Source: Thiocapsa bogorovii | GTDB taxonomy: Bacteria; Pseudomonadota; Gammaproteobacteria; Chromatiales; Chromatiaceae | Assembly: GCF_021228795.1 (NCBI RefSeq) | Contig: NZ_CP089309.1 | Span: 1,302,001-1,366,000, forward strand | Direction: 5' to 3' | DNA length: 64,000 nucleotides | Part shown: positions 8,108-56,730 of the stretch, piece by piece | Layout of the letters: each line of letters begins with the position of its first letter | Numbering within the stretch: the stretch's first letter is position 1 | Translations under genes and position numbers: made by a program | Notes under the pieces: model-generated | What the model was told of the DNA's origin: nothing | Database searches by the model: none | What the model saw: only the letters and a program-made list of their open reading frames with translations

Positions 8108-10003
8108 ATGAGCGCGATGCGGATCGCTGCACTCTTCGCTCTCTTGTTCATTTCCCCCGCGCTGCCGGCCCAAGATCGCGGCGAGCCCTACCGGGTGCTG
8201 GTGTTGCATTCGCACAGAAGCAGCCTGCCCGCGAACACGGATTGGTATAAAGGTATCGTGCGGGGATTTGCCTCGGCGCCTGACATGCAAGTCCAAATCG
8301 ATGTCGAAGCGCCTGATCTGACGCGCGTCGACGATGCAAACTACGTCGCTGAGCTACGCCGCAGCTATGGCCATAAGTACCGCGACTACAGGCCTGAGCT
8401 GGTCATCGCGACCTACACGCCGGCCTTCGAGTTTCTGTTCAACTATGGGGAAGAGCTGTTTCCTGGTGTGCCGATCGTGTTCTGCGACGCGGATGGCCGC
8501 ATCGTGGGCGCACACAAACTGCCGGCGACCATGACCGGCGTCACTTTCAATGCCGACATCGCCGGCACGCTGGAATTGGCATTGGCGCTGCATCCCGACA
8601 CCGAGCGGGTGGCCGTGATCGTCGGGGCCGGTGCGTATGGCCAATGGTACGAGCGCCTTGCAGAACAGGCATTTCAATCACTGAAGACCCGCCCTGACCT
8701 TGTCTGGTTGAAGGGTCTGCCATCGAACGAGCTCTCGGAGGCGGTCAGTCGGCTGCCGGCCCGAACGGTGATCCTCTACCTGATCCAATATCAGGACCGA
8801 GCCGGCAATGCCTACACGCCGCATAGCATCCTTCGCGATGTCGTCGATGTCGCCAGCGTGCCGACCTATGGTCTCTGGGACACCCTGATCGGCACCGGTA
8901 TCGTCGGCGGTCGCCTGGTTGCTCTGGAGGACGACGGGTTTCGCGCGGCAGAGATGGGCGTGCGCATCCTCCGGGGCGAAGCGCCGCAAGCGATACCTGT
9001 CGTCAACCGGCTGCACAACCCGGCGATCTTCGACGCCCCGGCGCTTGCGCGTTGGCGGATCGACGACGACCGATTGCCCGCGGGCAGCCGCATCCGCAAC
9101 CGCCAACCCTCGCTGCTGCAGGAACATCCAGGCGCGATCGCCACCGGGGCTCTCGTCATCGCCTTGCAGGGGCTGCTGATCGCGGCCCTGTTCGTGAACC
9201 GGAGACGCTTGCAGCGGACCGAGCTCGCACTGCGCGACGAGAACGCCCGCGGCAAGCAGACCATGAACGACATGATCGCACTGCGCGCAGCACTCGCCCG
9301 ATACGGCAAGCAGCGCAGCCTCGGCGCGATGGCCACGGCCATTGCTCACGAGATCAATCAGCCGCTGATCGCTATCCAGAACTACGCCCAGGCGGCGAAA
9401 CGGCGCCTGCGCAGTGGCAACGATCAAACCTCCAAGCTGCAAGCCTTGTTCGAGAAGATCGAGGGCCAAGCGACTCGGGCGGGTGAGATCACCCATAAGG
9501 TGCGGGCATTCATCAGTACCAAGCAGGTCGCCCTGGAGCCGCTGCCGCTCTGCGCGACCTTGAAAGAGGCGGTCAGGATGATGGAGCTGGAGACCGAGAG
9601 GCGTGGCTGCATCATCGACTGCACGTCCGCCGGAGAGCTCCCCGCCGTCCTTGCCGACGGCCTTCAGGTCCAATTGGTGTTGGTCAACCTGCTACAGAAC
9701 GCGCTTCAGTCGGTCTGCGGTGACGAAGCGAGCGATCGCCGTGTGCGCGTCCATGCCGAAAGGATCGACGGCGACGTCCAGGTCTGCGTCTCGGACCGGG
9801 GACCCGGGGTACCGTCGCAGCAGGTCGAGGCCATCTTCGAACCGCTGCATTCCACTAAGAGCGGCGGCATGGGCATGGGCCTGTCGATTTGCCAAGAGAT
9901 CATTGAAGCCCACGGCGGACGACTTTGGTACGAGCCCAACCCCGCTGGCGGTGCGATGTTCTGCTTTACGCTGCGCGTGGCCAGCCATGATAAAAACAGC
10001 TAA
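8108..10003 (+). CDS. Sensor histidine kinase with ABC-substrate-binding-like periplasmic domain
   Basis: 631 residues from MSAMRIAALFALLF, chosen because a signal peptide follows. Residues about 25-335 form a periplasmic domain of the ABC-transporter substrate-binding type (LVIATYTPAFEFLFNYGEEL, GTLELALALHPDTERVAVIV). One membrane segment (ATGALVIALQGLLIAALFV) leads to a kinase core: His414 in AHEINQP, the N box NLLQNALQS, and G boxes DRGPGVP and GMGMGLSI. It should sense a periplasmic small molecule and phosphorylate the FixJ-type regulator whose gene overlaps its end by 17 bases. The ligand is not known. The TAXI receptor next door is transcribed the other way. Confidence 0.85.
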   Translation: MSAMRIAALFALLFISPALPAQDRGEPYRVLVLHSHRSSLPANTDWYKGIVRGFASAPDMQVQIDVEAPDLTRVDDANYVAELRRSYGHKYRDYRPELVIATYTPAFEFLFNYGEELFPGVPIVFCDADGRIVGAHKLPATMTGVTFNADIAGTLELALALHPDTERVAVIVGAGAYGQWYERLAEQAFQSLKTRPDLVWLKGLPSNELSEAVSRLPARTVILYLIQYQDRAGNAYTPHSILRDVVDVASVPTYGLWDTLIGTGIVGGRLVALEDDGFRAAEMGVRILRGEAPQAIPVVNRLHNPAIFDAPALARWRIDDDRLPAGSRIRNRQPSLLQEHPGAIATGALVIALQGLLIAALFVNRRRLQRTELALRDENARGKQTMNDMIALRAALARYGKQRSLGAMATAIAHEINQPLIAIQNYAQAAKRRLRSGNDQTSKLQALFEKIEGQATRAGEITHKVRAFISTKQVALEPLPLCATLKEAVRMMELETERRGCIIDCTSAGELPAVLADGLQVQLVLVNLLQNALQSVCGDEASDRRVRVHAERIDGDVQVCVSDRGPGVPSQQVEAIFEPLHSTKSGGMGMGLSICQEIIEAHGGRLWYEPNPAGGAMFCFTLRVASHDKNS

Positions 10004-51346: not shown

Positions 51347-52447
51347 TCATTGTTCGGACCCGATATAGCGCTCCAGTACGGACTTCCACGCCTCGCCGCG
51401 GGTGATGTCCAGAAGTGAACGATTGATGGGCTCACGCAGCGGGCTGGGCTGCGGCAAGGCGATGCCGTAGTCTTGCCGCTGCAAGACCTGGGGCAGCACG
51501 CGCAAGGTGTCCTCGTGATCCCTGGCAATCAGGAAGCGAAGGATCGGTGCGTCGTACAGGACCGCGTCTGCATCACCGGCGGCGAGCCGGCTCAACGCCT
51601 GCTCCAAAGACGGGGCGGTCTTGTGGCGAACTCCGTAGCGCGTCAGGAACTCATCGCTGGTGCTGTCGGCGACCGTGACCACCCGGGTGCCGTAGAGGTC
51701 GTTCGGGCCGCGGATGGGGTGTCTCAGCTCGCCGACCGTCAGCGCGGTGGCGATGGCGGCGGTGAAGCCTGAGACCATGATCACGCTGGCGAACATCCAG
51801 ACGAGCGCAATCCCGCGACCGATGGCCGTGATCGGCGTCTTGTCGCCGTAACCGACGGTTGTCATCGTAACCGCGGACCACCAGAGACCGGAGCCGATCC
51901 CTCGCGCCAAGCCACCGTGAAAGTGGGCGTTGCGGCGGCGCTCGGCCAGCCAGATCAGCACTCCGATCAACGTCAGCAGTCCGAGCAGGGCCGCCACGCT
52001 GTGCAGGAAGCGACCGGAGAAGAGGCGCTGCAGGGTTGCCATGAAGCCACCCTCGGGGTGCTGCACGACAGCGATCCCGAGCCCCGAGGTGTAGAAGGGT
52101 TGGGTGAAGTCCACCCGCTCCTCGCGCGCGCCGGTGATGGTCAGCGCCGCCGCGACGGCATCCACCTCACCCTCGGCCACGGCATCCACCATCCGGCTTA
52201 GATCCAGTTCCACCAGCCGGTAGTCCAGGTTCAGCCGCTCGGCGATCTGTGCCCAGAGATCGATGGCGATGCCGCTCCAGCTCCCGTCGGCGTCCCGCAT
52301 CGCGAACGGCGGGACCTGGCGGGTGCCGATGACCAGCGGCGACCGACCGGACCCGACGGCGTCCGGCTCCGTTTCCGGTTGCGCGCGGACCACCCCGGAG
52401 GCCGCCAGGCAGGTCACCAACAGCAGGGCGGTCAGCAGCGGGTGCAT
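51347..52447 (-). CDS. GluR0-like ligand-gated K+ channel
   Basis: 366 residues from MHPLLTALLL, where a signal peptide begins; an in-frame Met at 52534 would add 29 residues. Domain order: S1 ligand-binding lobe (PLVIGTRQVPPFAMRDADGS, then WSGIAIDLWAQIAE), membrane segment, pore loop with the K+ filter TVGYGD (AVTMTTVGYGDKTP), a second membrane segment, then the S2 lobe (GPNDLYGTRVVTVADSTSDE ... DADAVLYDAPILRFLIARD). This is the architecture of prokaryotic glutamate-receptor channels such as GluR0. An extra segment precedes the pore, as in that family. The ligand is probably an amino acid. Confidence 0.88.
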   Translation of the reverse strand: MHPLLTALLLVTCLAASGVVRAQPETEPDAVGSGRSPLVIGTRQVPPFAMRDADGSWSGIAIDLWAQIAERLNLDYRLVELDLSRMVDAVAEGEVDAVAAALTITGAREERVDFTQPFYTSGLGIAVVQHPEGGFMATLQRLFSGRFLHSVAALLGLLTLIGVLIWLAERRRNAHFHGGLARGIGSGLWWSAVTMTTVGYGDKTPITAIGRGIALVWMFASVIMVSGFTAAIATALTVGELRHPIRGPNDLYGTRVVTVADSTSDEFLTRYGVRHKTAPSLEQALSRLAAGDADAVLYDAPILRFLIARDHEDTLRVLPQVLQRQDYGIALPQPSPLREPINRSLLDITRGEAWKSVLERYIGSEQ

Positions 52448-52672
52448 GCTGTGACGTGAATTGATGAGGATCGCCGCATGCGTGTCGGTGCTGGGGCTAA
52501 ACCGCATCCGGCGCGGCATGCGTCGTCTCTTCATCGAAGCTGCCTCGGCCGGATCCTGGAACCTGCGAGATGACGCGGTTCAGGATCGTCAATAATCAGA
52601 ACGTTAAACTGCGTCCCCGCCTGGTTCACGGGTTCACGCACCGTTGGGCTCGCCTGGAAATCAGCAGGTCGC

Positions 52673-54688
52673 TCAGGACGCGATTGAAGACGATTGCCCG
52701 GAATTCTCACACGCTTTCTGCCCGCTGTCCTCACGCAGATACAGCGTCTGACTCGGGAACGCGATGCTCAGGCCATTGGCCTCGACGATGGCGCAACAGC
52801 GAAAGAGCACGTCCTGCTTGACCTGGAGCCAGCCCTCCCAGTCGACGGTCTTTGAGAAACAGTAGATCAGGATGTCGATTGAACTGTCGCCGAGGGCATC
52901 GAGATAGACCAGCAGCGTCCGCTTGATGCCCTGCCCGTCCATGGTGTCTGCGATCTTGGCGAGTTGCTGTTGCGTGTAGCTGGAGATATCGGTGGTGGCG
53001 TCGGCGACGCCCTCATGGGCGATCAGCATGGCGCGAATGTCATCGACGGTCTTCTTCACCTGCTGCATGTCGCTGCCGTATTCGAGCCCAAGCGTGAACT
53101 TGATGCGCCGACCCAGTTTGCGCCGACTCCAGTTGCGTACATCGACACCGGCCAGATAGGCGTTGGGCAGAAAGATCACCGCGTTGTCGAAGGTGCGGAT
53201 CTTGGTGCTGCGCAGGCCGACATCGATCACCATGCCCTCGCCGTTGGGCGTCACGATCCAATCGCCCTGCTGGCACATGTCGTCGGCGATGATGGAGATG
53301 CACCCGAAGATGTTCGCGATGGTCTCCTTGGCCGCAAACGCGATGGCCAGACCGCCGATGCCGAGCGACGCCAGGAGTGCGCGGATGTCGAAGCCGAAGC
53401 GCTGCAAGAGGTAGAGCGCGGCAATCACGATCAGCGTGAAGCGGATCATGCTGGACAGAAAGTTGACCAACTCTCCGCGTAGGGTCGGATGGCGATGAAG
53501 CAGTTCGCTCGAATAGAGCCTCACGAAGTTGTCGATCAGGCGAAGCAGCGCCCACACGATGAGCACGACGTACAGGCTGCCGAGCACGTCCAGGATGCGC
53601 TCGTCGGATTCGCGCAAGAACAGGATGCGCGTCGCCTGAGCGATCGCGGTCAGCACCAGCAGGACGCGTAGCGGACCATAAAACGACTGCTCGAGCAGGC
53701 GGACAAAGCGCTCGGATTCGGAAGGGTCCGTCCGCGCGATCCGCGCCTGTTTCGGAAAGGCACGTCGCAAGAGTCGCAGCAGCACCGGCAGCAGAATCAG
53801 GCCGACACCCGTCAATGCCAGAAACAACACGGCCGCAGCACAGAGTTGGCCAACGCTGATGAGTTGGCCGATGCTGAATTGACTGCCCGGCATCACATAG
53901 GCGTTGATGTCGATGGCCCAGGGCTGCGTGTCGATGGCGCCGATCAGTGCGCTGATGCCGACCCAATCCAACAGCTGGTTGCTCCTCGCCGCGTCCTTGA
54001 CGAAGCCGAACAGAGACTGCGCCACGGCGCCATAGACCTCGGCGCGTTGGCTGTAGTCACGATAGGCGTCGATCAATGCTTGCTCGGAGCTGCTCAAAGA
54101 GGTCGGCTCGGCAGCTTGCAGACGCTGCACGGTGCGCCCGAACGGGGCCTGGTTGAAAACGGTTCGATGCTCGAAGCTGTTGAACGCGTCGATGAAGTCC
54201 GCGGTGGGTGCGAACCTGATCCAGTCACCCGCCACCCTTGTTAGCAGATCCGCAAAACTCTCGCTCAGGATCGCGCTGTTGAGCCGCAGAATCGCGGTCA
54301 TCTCGGCGGTCTTGTCCCCGCCGGCACGGGCATGCGACACGCCGTCGCGAAGACGCTCCAATTCGGCCGCGGTGACGGTGGGCGCTATGCCCTTGCCGCC
54401 TCCGGAAAGGATTGTCCGTGTGAGTTGCTCCAGCGTGGCGTCGCGCTCGTGCGTGAGCCGCGCACTGCTGACGGCATCGGTGGTGGCGGCAATCCGTTGG
54501 TCGAGGTTGGCGACGGCCAGCAGTTGCGGCTGCGTGAACAGTGTGCTGCTGCCGAGGTTTTCCGCGCGGAGTATCGGTGCATCGCTTGCCGACACGATCG
54601 CCGGGAACACGAGGAGTCCGATGAGCAGCGCGGCGATCGTTCGGATGCCTCGGCGGCCTCGGCCCGGGACGTTCGGTGGTCGGCTCAT
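52673..54688 (-). CDS. Large MscS/KefA-type mechanosensitive channel
   Basis: 671 residues from MSRPPNVPGR; AAGGAG precedes the ATG. Signal peptide (TIAALLIGLLVFPAIVSA), a long periplasmic alpha-helical domain (60-260), several membrane segments, then the MscS core: ASLGIGGLAIAFAAKETIAN pore helix, DWIVTPNGEGMVIDVGLRST beta domain and the C-terminal cytoplasmic part. It should open under membrane tension and release solutes on osmotic downshock. It sits between two other channel genes on the same strand. Confidence 0.88.
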   Translation of the reverse strand: MSRPPNVPGRGRRGIRTIAALLIGLLVFPAIVSASDAPILRAENLGSSTLFTQPQLLAVANLDQRIAATTDAVSSARLTHERDATLEQLTRTILSGGGKGIAPTVTAAELERLRDGVSHARAGGDKTAEMTAILRLNSAILSESFADLLTRVAGDWIRFAPTADFIDAFNSFEHRTVFNQAPFGRTVQRLQAAEPTSLSSSEQALIDAYRDYSQRAEVYGAVAQSLFGFVKDAARSNQLLDWVGISALIGAIDTQPWAIDINAYVMPGSQFSIGQLISVGQLCAAAVLFLALTGVGLILLPVLLRLLRRAFPKQARIARTDPSESERFVRLLEQSFYGPLRVLLVLTAIAQATRILFLRESDERILDVLGSLYVVLIVWALLRLIDNFVRLYSSELLHRHPTLRGELVNFLSSMIRFTLIVIAALYLLQRFGFDIRALLASLGIGGLAIAFAAKETIANIFGCISIIADDMCQQGDWIVTPNGEGMVIDVGLRSTKIRTFDNAVIFLPNAYLAGVDVRNWSRRKLGRRIKFTLGLEYGSDMQQVKKTVDDIRAMLIAHEGVADATTDISSYTQQQLAKIADTMDGQGIKRTLLVYLDALGDSSIDILIYCFSKTVDWEGWLQVKQDVLFRCCAIVEANGLSIAFPSQTLYLREDSGQKACENSGQSSSIAS

Positions 54689-54832
54689 GAGTCGCTCCTT
54701 ATCGCGGATTGGACAACGTCCGGGGTGCGGGCTGGATTGTGCGGCATCATCGGATATCGCAACTGACCATTTCGCGCCACATGGAAACAACGGCCATGTC
54801 GGGTAGGATGGTCATCGAGCAGACTTGTCTGG

Positions 54833-55010
54833 TTGATGGGTATCCTCGGCGGCTCGGCGACACTGGCCGACGGGCACGGCACCGGCGCCGCCTATGGACA
54901 GGTGTTCGGCGAGGCCAACGTGTTTGCAAGGTGCCGTCGAGGTGGCGATGGCTTGCGCGACCTTCGGGCCGATCTTCTGGCCATGGCGCTCGCTCGGAGG
55001 TCGGCGTCGC
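54833..55010 (+). pseudogene. gltS: Relic of a sodium/glutamate symporter (GltS-like)
   Basis: One frame reads MGILGGSATLADGHGTGAAY then GQVFGEAN, and a shifted frame continues QGAVEVAMACATFG. Both match the conserved GGHGTAAA...G...A.ATFG region of GltS symporters. At least one frameshift and loss of all other parts make it non-functional. Confidence 0.55.
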
Positions 55011-55164
55011 CGCGGCAGGCCCAGCCGGCGCTGCGGAGTCGCGCCGCATCATCGAGCGAATCAGCGCCCTGCTGGTCGAGGCCGGCGACCATTCCAGGGA
55101 GCGCGAGCGCGTCATCACCGAGAGGTTCGACAGCGCCTACACCGACGTAAGGTGGAACGAGATA

Positions 55165-56730
55165 CTAGAGGTGATTCACCCAAACGCGCTGCAAGACCAC
55201 GAACAAGAACGCCGTCGAACAGCCGAACATCAGCACCCCCGTTATCGCGATCAGCGTCCCGAGATGTCGCCAAGGATACTTCAGCAGGACGTCGCCATAG
55301 CCCAGCGTCGTGAGCGAAGCGGCCGTGAAGTAGATGCCTTCCGTAATGCTTGGCAATAGCCGCGTTCCGCGCAAGAACAGGCCCCATCCCGCGGCCTCCA
55401 CCACATGTGCAAAGGTCAGTGTCAGGAAGCAGCCGAGAAGGAAGATCTTGCCGGTATGGTTCGGTCCTACATGCTCGAGCAACCATGCCTTGGTCAGGAA
55501 CATCTCGCCGATCACATCGAAGATCACGACCAGATGAAAATAGAACAGTACGAGTGCAAGCAGCAGTGCAACGGCATGGATCCCAATGATCCTTCCGGCT
55601 GAAGCGGGGCGATGTCGCATCACCTGTATTCCATCCGACGCGTCTTGACGCCCTCCTTCGGAGGCGGGCAGAGCGTCACATTGCTTGCTAGGCTCACCAC
55701 TGCCCTCTTCGAGTGCCGACATCGATCCTGAGCCTGCTGCTACTAGAGTCTCCGACAATCGCCTGGGTTTCTTTTTCGCGGAACTTGCCTGATCCTGATA
55801 GCGATCCTGCATCCGAAGGCGAAGCACGAGCCAGGCCAGCAGGGAAATGACGAGAGACAAGCCGGTCACCAGCCAGAAACCAAGCGGATTATGTTGGTCC
55901 GGGATTCCCGCGACGTTCATTCCGAGCAGACCGGTAATGAACGTCAACGGCAAGAATACGGTCGCGACGATCGTCAAATTAAGGCTGGAACGGGTCATGG
56001 TCTCCGAGCGTTGCGCATCGATCTGATCCACCAGCAGCTGTACCCGTGTGCGGCATTCATCCAGCCCCTCCAGATAGCGGGCCACATGATCCGATGCCCT
56101 GTTCAGCGTTTCACGATCGTCGGCATCCAGGGCCAGGGCGGGATCGGTCGTCATCGGAGCAAGCACCTGCCGCGTGGCATTCACTTGCCGTCTGGTACGA
56201 AAGATTCGGCGCCGAAGCTCGCTGAGCACCTGCGGGTGTGGTACCGAACCGCCGTCGAGCAGCTCATCTTCGACGTCATCGATATCTTGGGTCAGATCGG
56301 AGATGATCGGCTCAATCCGGTAGGTCATACGCGAGACCATGAACCCCAGCAGGTCCACTGCCGTGATCAACGTCCTGTCCGACGACAAGCTCTGTCGTAA
56401 CTCCTCCACGACGGCGACCGTCCCGGAGTGTACCGTGATCGCCCTATTCGGGCCGATCAACAGCTTCAAGTCGACGAGATCGCTGAGATCCTCCGTCTGA
56501 CTTCCGCGCAGTGTCTTGATGCTCAGCAAGGTGCCGTCCGGCACTTGTTCGTATTGGTTAAAACGCACCGGCTTCAACAACGCCGTTCTGGTCCGATCGT
56601 CGATCTCCTGCCACGCCATCAGCCAGTCGCGATCGGTTTCGTCGGCAATGTCGATGTCATACCAGGTGACGCCGTCGGCACCGGTGTTGTTCGAGGCTTT
56701 TCCGGGACCGAATCGTGTCGTCTTAGGCAT
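55165..56730 (-). CDS. CorA-type divalent-cation channel fused to a K+-channel pore domain
   Basis: 521 residues, one uninterrupted frame. Residues 20-245 form the CorA/ZntB cytoplasmic domain (VTWYDIDIADETDRDWLM, IDDVEDELLDG, RRIFRTRRQVNATRQVLAPM). Two membrane segments follow: the first ends at GMN (270-272) in TFITGLLGMNVAGIP, the second is LSLVISLLAWLVLRLR. A polar linker (about 305-380) leads to a second module with membrane segments and a K+-filter-like loop TTLGYGD (474-480) in FTAASLTTLGYGDVLLKYPW, then a final helix. CorA forms pentamers and K+ pores form tetramers, so the joint assembly is puzzling. It is followed on the same strand by the mechanosensitive channel. Confidence 0.88.
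   Translation of the reverse strand: MPKTTRFGPGKASNNTGADGVTWYDIDIADETDRDWLMAWQEIDDRTRTALLKPVRFNQYEQVPDGTLLSIKTLRGSQTEDLSDLVDLKLLIGPNRAITVHSGTVAVVEELRQSLSSDRTLITAVDLLGFMVSRMTYRIEPIISDLTQDIDDVEDELLDGGSVPHPQVLSELRRRIFRTRRQVNATRQVLAPMTTDPALALDADDRETLNRASDHVARYLEGLDECRTRVQLLVDQIDAQRSETMTRSSLNLTIVATVFLPLTFITGLLGMNVAGIPDQHNPLGFWLVTGLSLVISLLAWLVLRLRMQDRYQDQASSAKKKPRRLSETLVAAGSGSMSALEEGSGEPSKQCDALPASEGGRQDASDGIQVMRHRPASAGRIIGIHAVALLLALVLFYFHLVVIFDVIGEMFLTKAWLLEHVGPNHTGKIFLLGCFLTLTFAHVVEAAGWGLFLRGTRLLPSITEGIYFTAASLTTLGYGDVLLKYPWRHLGTLIAITGVLMFGCSTAFLFVVLQRVWVNHL

Follow-up and report, generated by a model that had tools for sequence, protein, structure and literature searches.

The window, i.e., the whole stretch of 64,000 nucleotides of Thiocapsa bogorovii DNA that was analysed, holds a single open frame of 521 codons at 55165..56730 on the minus strand. 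It starts with an ATG (56730-56728), ends with a TAG (55167-55165) and has no internal stop. The N-terminal part (residues 1-304; 55819..56730, minus strand) is a CorA module of the ZntB/CmaX-like kind, as judged from Pfam, the best PDB relatives and the modelled helices. Here, PF01544 (CorA) covers residues 19-304 with 187.3 bits against a cut-off of 27, and the GMN motif follows the first membrane helix at residues 270-272 (55915-55923, minus strand). According to Ion_trans_2, the models and the family alignment, the C-terminal part (residues 375-521; 55168..55608, minus strand) is a K+-pore module, for which PF07885 (Ion_trans_2) matches residues 444-514 with 32.8 bits (cut-off 22.5). Its selectivity filter TTLGYGD occupies residues 474-480 (55291..55311, minus strand). 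The initial annotation had described exactly such a frame, i.e., a complete CorA/ZntB module with GMN at 270-272 followed by a second membrane module with a TTLGYGD filter. It was right in coordinates, strand, length and motif positions, and both families score above their Pfam cut-offs in one chain.

Further genes of the window lie downstream of the fusion on the same (minus) strand. An MscS-type mechanosensitive channel of 705 residues (52673..54790; Pfam MS_channel) is found at a distance of 0.4 kb. A GluR0-like protein, in which a Pfam SBP_bac_3 match spans a P-loop pore with the motif TTVGYGD, is encoded at 51347..52534, 2.6 kb from the fusion. Just downstream of the fusion, 54833..55146 holds remnants of a TAXI-type and a gltS-like gene, both names being taken from inspection of the translations. 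The remnants show 90-91% DNA identity to G000:C1:911021-911176 and 912308-912450 of the same genome, where the counterpart frames are long and open.

With regard to known systems, the CorA half shares the CorA domain, the GMN and a GIP shortly after it with the ZntB/CmaX branch of the CorA/MIT superfamily. Its nearest solved structures are CmaX (7nh9, E 8.1e-25) and ZntB (5n9y, E 1.2e-23). The fusion differs from the superfamily by its additional C-terminal K+-pore module, and it does not reach the equivalog cut-offs of ZntB (NF007092, 134.7 vs. 292) or CorA (TIGR00383, 85.5 vs. 200.75). In Pseudomonas, CmpX is a member of the MscS family, and to our knowledge the cmaX-cfrX-cmpX operon comprises neither a K+ pore nor a fusion. 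The CorA-type gene of this operon (PMC7641640), which lies beside cmpX, encodes CmaX, the protein of structure 7nh9.

The K module was modelled both alone (from residue 371; pLDDT 87.7) and within the full chain (pLDDT 79.6). The models place helices at residues 378-421, 423-455 and 488-520 and a pore helix at 462-473. Hydropathy and models thus agree on three long helices where two would be usual, a feature absent from the initial annotation. Of the K modules aligned, 29/30 match PF07885 at E 0.01. The best 50 of 497 Foldseek matches are P-loop cation channels (Kv, KcsA, MthK, NaK, cyclic-nucleotide and KirBac types); none of these 50 reaches E <= 0.001, the best having E 0.046 and a probability of 0.98. 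Among PDB entries, the K profile matches Kv1.2 best. The module has its outer helix, pore helix, TxGYGD and inner helix in common with small bacterial Ion_trans_2 K+ channels, to which the fusion adds a long N-terminal helix, a charge pattern that suggests N-in and the N-terminal CorA. In the full-chain model, residues 326-364 and 366-372 have a pLDDT below 50, i.e., the linker is predicted to be disordered over about 50 residues.

Homologues that are in frame and intact occur in six further genomes with 66-75% identity. A scan of genome contigs, which provided 21 loci, includes MAG130 (L003, a MAG labelled Deltaproteobacteria) with the whole protein in one frame at 75% identity, as well as Rhabdochromatium marinum (L004, identical to G014), again with the whole protein in one frame. 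Within the order, 6/210 genomes show a stop-free single frame (the window's own, G014, G201, G203, G204 and G205), which together with MAG130 makes seven distinct genomes with intact fusions; the GMN is found in 7/7 of them. The fusion is present in purple sulfur bacteria, also in other genera of the family. Beyond the window's own genome, none was found among 369 genomes of the class (E <= 1e-35) or 398 genomes of the phylum (E <= 1e-30), both sets being samples of larger groups. A search of plasmids provided 179 matching records, none of which covers more than 80% of the query. Among 150 genomes of the Accumulibacter family, G232 alone carries the fusion, in broken form. Unfused genes of the same CorA subfamily are found in G004, G168, G169 and G219 (56-63% identity), and G172 holds a fragment (48%).

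This distribution also decides on the reality of the joined frame. The initial annotation had named a sequencing error that joins two genes, or separate genes in all close relatives, as observations that would speak against a fusion. Separate CorA and K genes do both occur in some relatives (G004, G168 and G219), as expected if an error in sequencing or assembly had deleted the stop between two genes. But six other genomes carry the intact in-frame fusion, G204 and G205 as single-contig assemblies, and the length differences of their linkers preserve the frame; since these genomes are independent, we rejected a lost stop, which keeps next to no probability. Likewise, it does not apply to all close relatives that the genes are separate, given the fusions in other genera of the family. 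We therefore regard a conserved in-frame fusion of a CorA-superfamily transporter with a K+-channel pore as practically certain. The initial annotation knew of no described example, and we also found no report of a CorA/K+-channel fusion in the open-licence papers searched.

We further compared the seven intact fusions pairwise (NG86, 21 pairs). We obtain a dN/dS of 0.07-0.38 in CorA and of 0.19-0.46 in the K module, i.e., both are under purifying selection. The linker, with a dN/dS of 0.15-1.63, shows a higher dN than CorA in 21/21 pairs. That is, it evolves faster yet stays in frame, with one 13-residue deletion shared by G204, G205 and R. marinum. Concerning the filter, four of the seven intact fusions have GYGD (window, MAG130, G201, G203), as do both Accumulibacter copies, two have GFGD (G204, G205) and one has GCDG. 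The latter belongs to R. marinum (L004:5001-6521), which differs from G205 by four clustered coding changes with nearly unchanged flanks. Since its filter reads TMLGCDG, this copy is probably not K+-selective.

The two Accumulibacter copies are broken. In MAG L005, a frameshift lies in the CorA half while the K half is open. In MAG L006, a transposase-bearing insert of about 4 kb splits the CorA half and the linker contains a stop, again with an open K half. Thus, an intact CorA half is not required for the K half to be retained, and the fusion as a whole is rare, patchy and labile. The insert (L106:5911-9105) encodes a DDE_Tnp_1-associated protein, an IS66 transposase and a DruA-domain protein. 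Two further observations concern genomes with other arrangements. A 63-nt stretch with 90-92% identity to the tail of the K module is left near TAXI/gltS genes in G003 and G004 (L126:1501-1563 and L129:1501-1563), both of the window's genus and without intact fusion in the protein search of relatives. In another gammaproteobacterium (L176:1528-3965), an unfused CorA gene (36% identity) is divergent from a K+-channel gene that we labelled Kch-like by inspection.

The initial annotation had called the region between both modules a polar linker. A linker indeed exists, but it is more than a plain polar stretch: residues 323-374 (55609..55764, minus strand) match a MITE profile. The first sign came from the protein search of relatives, which provided short linker matches elsewhere in the genome; DNA searches identified these stray matches as copies of a dispersed element. 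When scanning the whole window with the MITE profile (nhmmer), we obtain one significant match, which covers 55609-55764 with 66.9 bits (E 5.9e-20), while the four other matches have E-values of 1 or more. The best of 300 shuffled linkers reaches 4.2 bits, such that a chance repeat match was rejected as source of the linker. Matches of almost full length are also found in the linkers of MAG130 (5e-29), G201 (3.9e-16) and G203 (2e-10). The profile is weak in the linkers of G205 (E 0.08) and G204 (0.22) and finds no match in those of R. marinum and either Accumulibacter.

We also applied a gapped test that allows for long gaps, using four MITE copies as reference and 300 shuffles per linker. Here, 7/9 fusion linkers beat 300/300 shuffles (z 7-33), and the two Accumulibacter linkers show z-values of 3.0 and 3.3 with 3/300 shuffles being equal or better. 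Judged from these similarities, the linker of the fusion is very probably a domesticated MITE copy. Upstream (5') of unfused K genes, none of eight stretches provides a convincing MITE remnant (z -1.9 to 4.1); the best one, L009, is equalled by 1/300 shuffles. Of the candidate linker remnants at the N-termini of the K proteins of L008 and L009, that of L008 was not borne out in the gapped shuffle test.

The MITE itself is a short, dispersed element of about 165 bp without own transposase; we know of no name for the family. We aligned 34 copies of 162-165 nt, which have the common inverted ends CTTAGGCGATT and AATCGCCTTAG, and one copy that we folded forms a whole-element hairpin (z -4.66). Elements of this kind are found in 31/210 genomes of the order, where three candidates were scored per genome such that no copy numbers follow. 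For G028 and G183, a first look listed 373 and 693 candidates, of which three each were scored. The flanking 3-mers are identical for 29/34 dispersed copies (shuffle mean 16.1, 0/10,000 shuffles as high), and rare ones are among the identical pairs (TTG/TTG, TCA/TCA, CAA/CAA). That is, dispersed copies are flanked by a target-site duplication of 3 bp. For the loci L137-L165, L091 and L092, we noted the target duplications as 3-bp TWA. The reading frame used by the fusion is open in 5/34 copies, so reading through the MITE is possible without being the rule. Furthermore, 7/34 copies lie within some frame of 200 residues or more, from which we draw no claim because such frames are common at 63% G+C. 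In G219, two MITE copies (L103:3030-3184 and 8811-8970) are located beside the unfused CorA gene, one of them about 0.5 kb 3' of it.

Given that MITE traces beat all shuffles in 7/9 linkers, a single MITE event probably gave rise to the fusion. In an ancestor, a MITE would have come to lie at the junction of corA with the gene of a K pore, both would have been joined by a frame without stops across the MITE, and the fused allele may then have spread to several genera, partly by horizontal transfer. The trees are less uniform. In the CorA tree, the nine rows of fusions form one group, though weakly supported (72/99), when L053 (a fragment) and L088 (a long branch) are left out. If both are included along with one wrong protein (L176_x), the fused rows do not form one group and require 2 changes. 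In the K tree, the fused K modules are not one group (p-AU 0.0275 against a single group), and stand-alone K modules of a Verrucomicrobiaceae MAG, a Rhodobacteraceae MAG, Tropicimonas and a Thiodictyon MAG are placed among or beside them. Therefore, fissions or more than one origin are needed. In view of the K tree and the broken Accumulibacter copies, the simplest reading is a single fusion event, after which the CorA half was lost several times.

The order of events could also have been reversed, i.e., the fusion arose first with another linker into which the MITE hopped later in frame. This is what Rickettsia palindromic elements do, which are reported to be 105-150 bp long and to sit in frame within protein genes (PMC10969869 and PMC2229807). 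Those are other elements in other hosts and lie within one gene, while the MITE here is at the junction of two modules. The weak MITE trace in both Accumulibacter linkers would fit such a late insertion. On the other hand, traces are found at the same junction in 7/7 fusions outside Accumulibacter, and a clearly MITE-free linker in 0/9 fusions examined, which renders a late insertion unlikely, although it deserves to be kept in mind. In the open-licence literature that we searched, no report describes a MITE located where two channel genes are joined.

The helix count also bears on the orientation of the pore. Both ends of CorA proteins are cytosolic. The K module should thus start in the cytosol, and with three crossings its filter should face the cytosol as well. 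In agreement, positive charges are more common on the side of the N-terminus and the pore loop in 28/30 K modules and equal in 2/30; this filter-in bias is modest, and among the residues counted is the PWR conserved in the pore loop. By eye, the reverse charge pattern is seen in L168, a distant paralogue from the same genome. There is precedent for such an arrangement, i.e., GluR0-type channels comprise a K+ pore that is fused to another module and inverted in the membrane (PMC3483616). Their partner is a periplasmic binding protein, while that of the fusion is a metal transporter, pentameric in our proposal, and the inversion of its pore is deduced from the crossings. Based on models and helix counts, an inverted pore with its filter on the cytosolic side, like in GluR0, is a tentative assignment that we hold to be slightly less probable than its opposite. 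Topology is a sharper puzzle than symmetry. That a mobile element bridged two adjacent channel genes and that the resulting chimera of tethered CorA pentamer, MITE linker and upside-down K+ pore, with stand-alone relatives alike, constitutes a new class of inverted K+ channels is a more doubtful proposition.

Regarding symmetry, the initial annotation had pointed out that pentameric CorA and tetrameric K+ pores do not match. K+ pores are tetramers. The matched full-length PDB entries of CmaX and ZntB have 5 chains, and ZntB is described as a pentamer in PMC5670123. The problem is therefore real, but it is softened because about 50 residues of the linker are disordered in the model. Five CorA parts would assemble, and their K modules would form tetramers at the end of flexible, disordered linkers. 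To meet the 5:4 mismatch, one K subunit could be left over, or neighbouring pentamers could pool their K modules. The main effect of the fusion would then be to fix the co-localisation and dosage of both parts, and it may couple their gates as well.

Such coupling was the idea of the initial annotation: metal bound to the CorA part would open or close the K+ pore, i.e., a putative Mg2+- or Zn2+-sensing gate. In favour of it, CorA proteins change conformation with Mg2+, and both halves are under selection. But a long disordered linker with a 13-residue deletion in one lineage is a poor means of coupling both modules rigidly. Moreover, one fusion has lost its filter and two others have a broken CorA half, such that we consider metal gating rather improbable. 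Even less is to be said for the idea that the K module no longer conducts and serves as membrane anchor or regulator of CorA. The GFGD of G204 and G205 and the GCDG of R. marinum could be read this way, but GYGD is kept in the window, MAG130, G201, G203 and both Accumulibacter copies, the K module has a dN/dS of 0.19-0.46, and GFG filters conduct K+ in known channels. Similarly low is our estimate for two products from one gene, where translation restarts within the linker to release a free K module and the fusion is a translational convenience. The window has an ATG at residue 371, and many genomes encode the K module on its own, some of these copies being placed among the fused ones; however, none of the six other intact fusions has Met 371 in the alignment. 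A start at residue 371 was thus rejected as a conserved feature.

The gene neighbourhood provides a further view on function. Homologues of the window's MscS-type gene (tblastn, 73-80%) are located 2-5 kb from the fusion in G203, G204, G205 and G014, and an MscK-type gene is about 1.5 kb away from it in G204 and G205. MAG130 shows the same-strand order MscS, CLC, fusion, small frame and Na+/H+ exchanger. Here, CLC is directly upstream of the fusion with a gap of 93 nt, as it is in the two Accumulibacter copies (48 and 48 nt), and a CLC gene is also upstream of the unfused K genes in L008 and L009. In G201, it is found 2 kb downstream on the opposite strand. Within the 64-kb window itself, no CLC match was obtained at E 1e-8. 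Elsewhere in the window's genome, a homologue of MscK type (1140 residues) precedes the K gene that stands alone, and a CLC-like stretch (36%) is about 3 kb away. Among 12 neighbours of unfused K genes that were searched with Pfam, 2 are CLC, 3 have no family and the rest is mixed; an MscS profile built from two proteins has no match among 49 neighbour proteins of unfused K genes.

The CLC, MscS/MscK and Na+/H+-exchanger neighbours in relatives suggest a role in ionic or osmotic balance, a putative function that we favour by a small degree. Together with these neighbours, the fusion protein would keep K+, Cl- and divalent cations in balance when osmotic conditions or the pH change. The explanation as a whole, i.e., an inherited MITE-joined fusion of tethered channels for ion balance with a presumed filter-in topology, appears reasonably probable to us.

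Evolution of proteins driven by MITEs has been called conceivable beyond Rickettsia (PMC10969869). The fusion is a traceable bacterial case in which a short mobile element sits exactly at the fusion seam and still supplies the linker, such that this kind of evolution can be studied across related genomes. At the same time, channels of five-fold and four-fold symmetry are joined in one chain, and the fusion forces a definite topology on a family of K+ pores.
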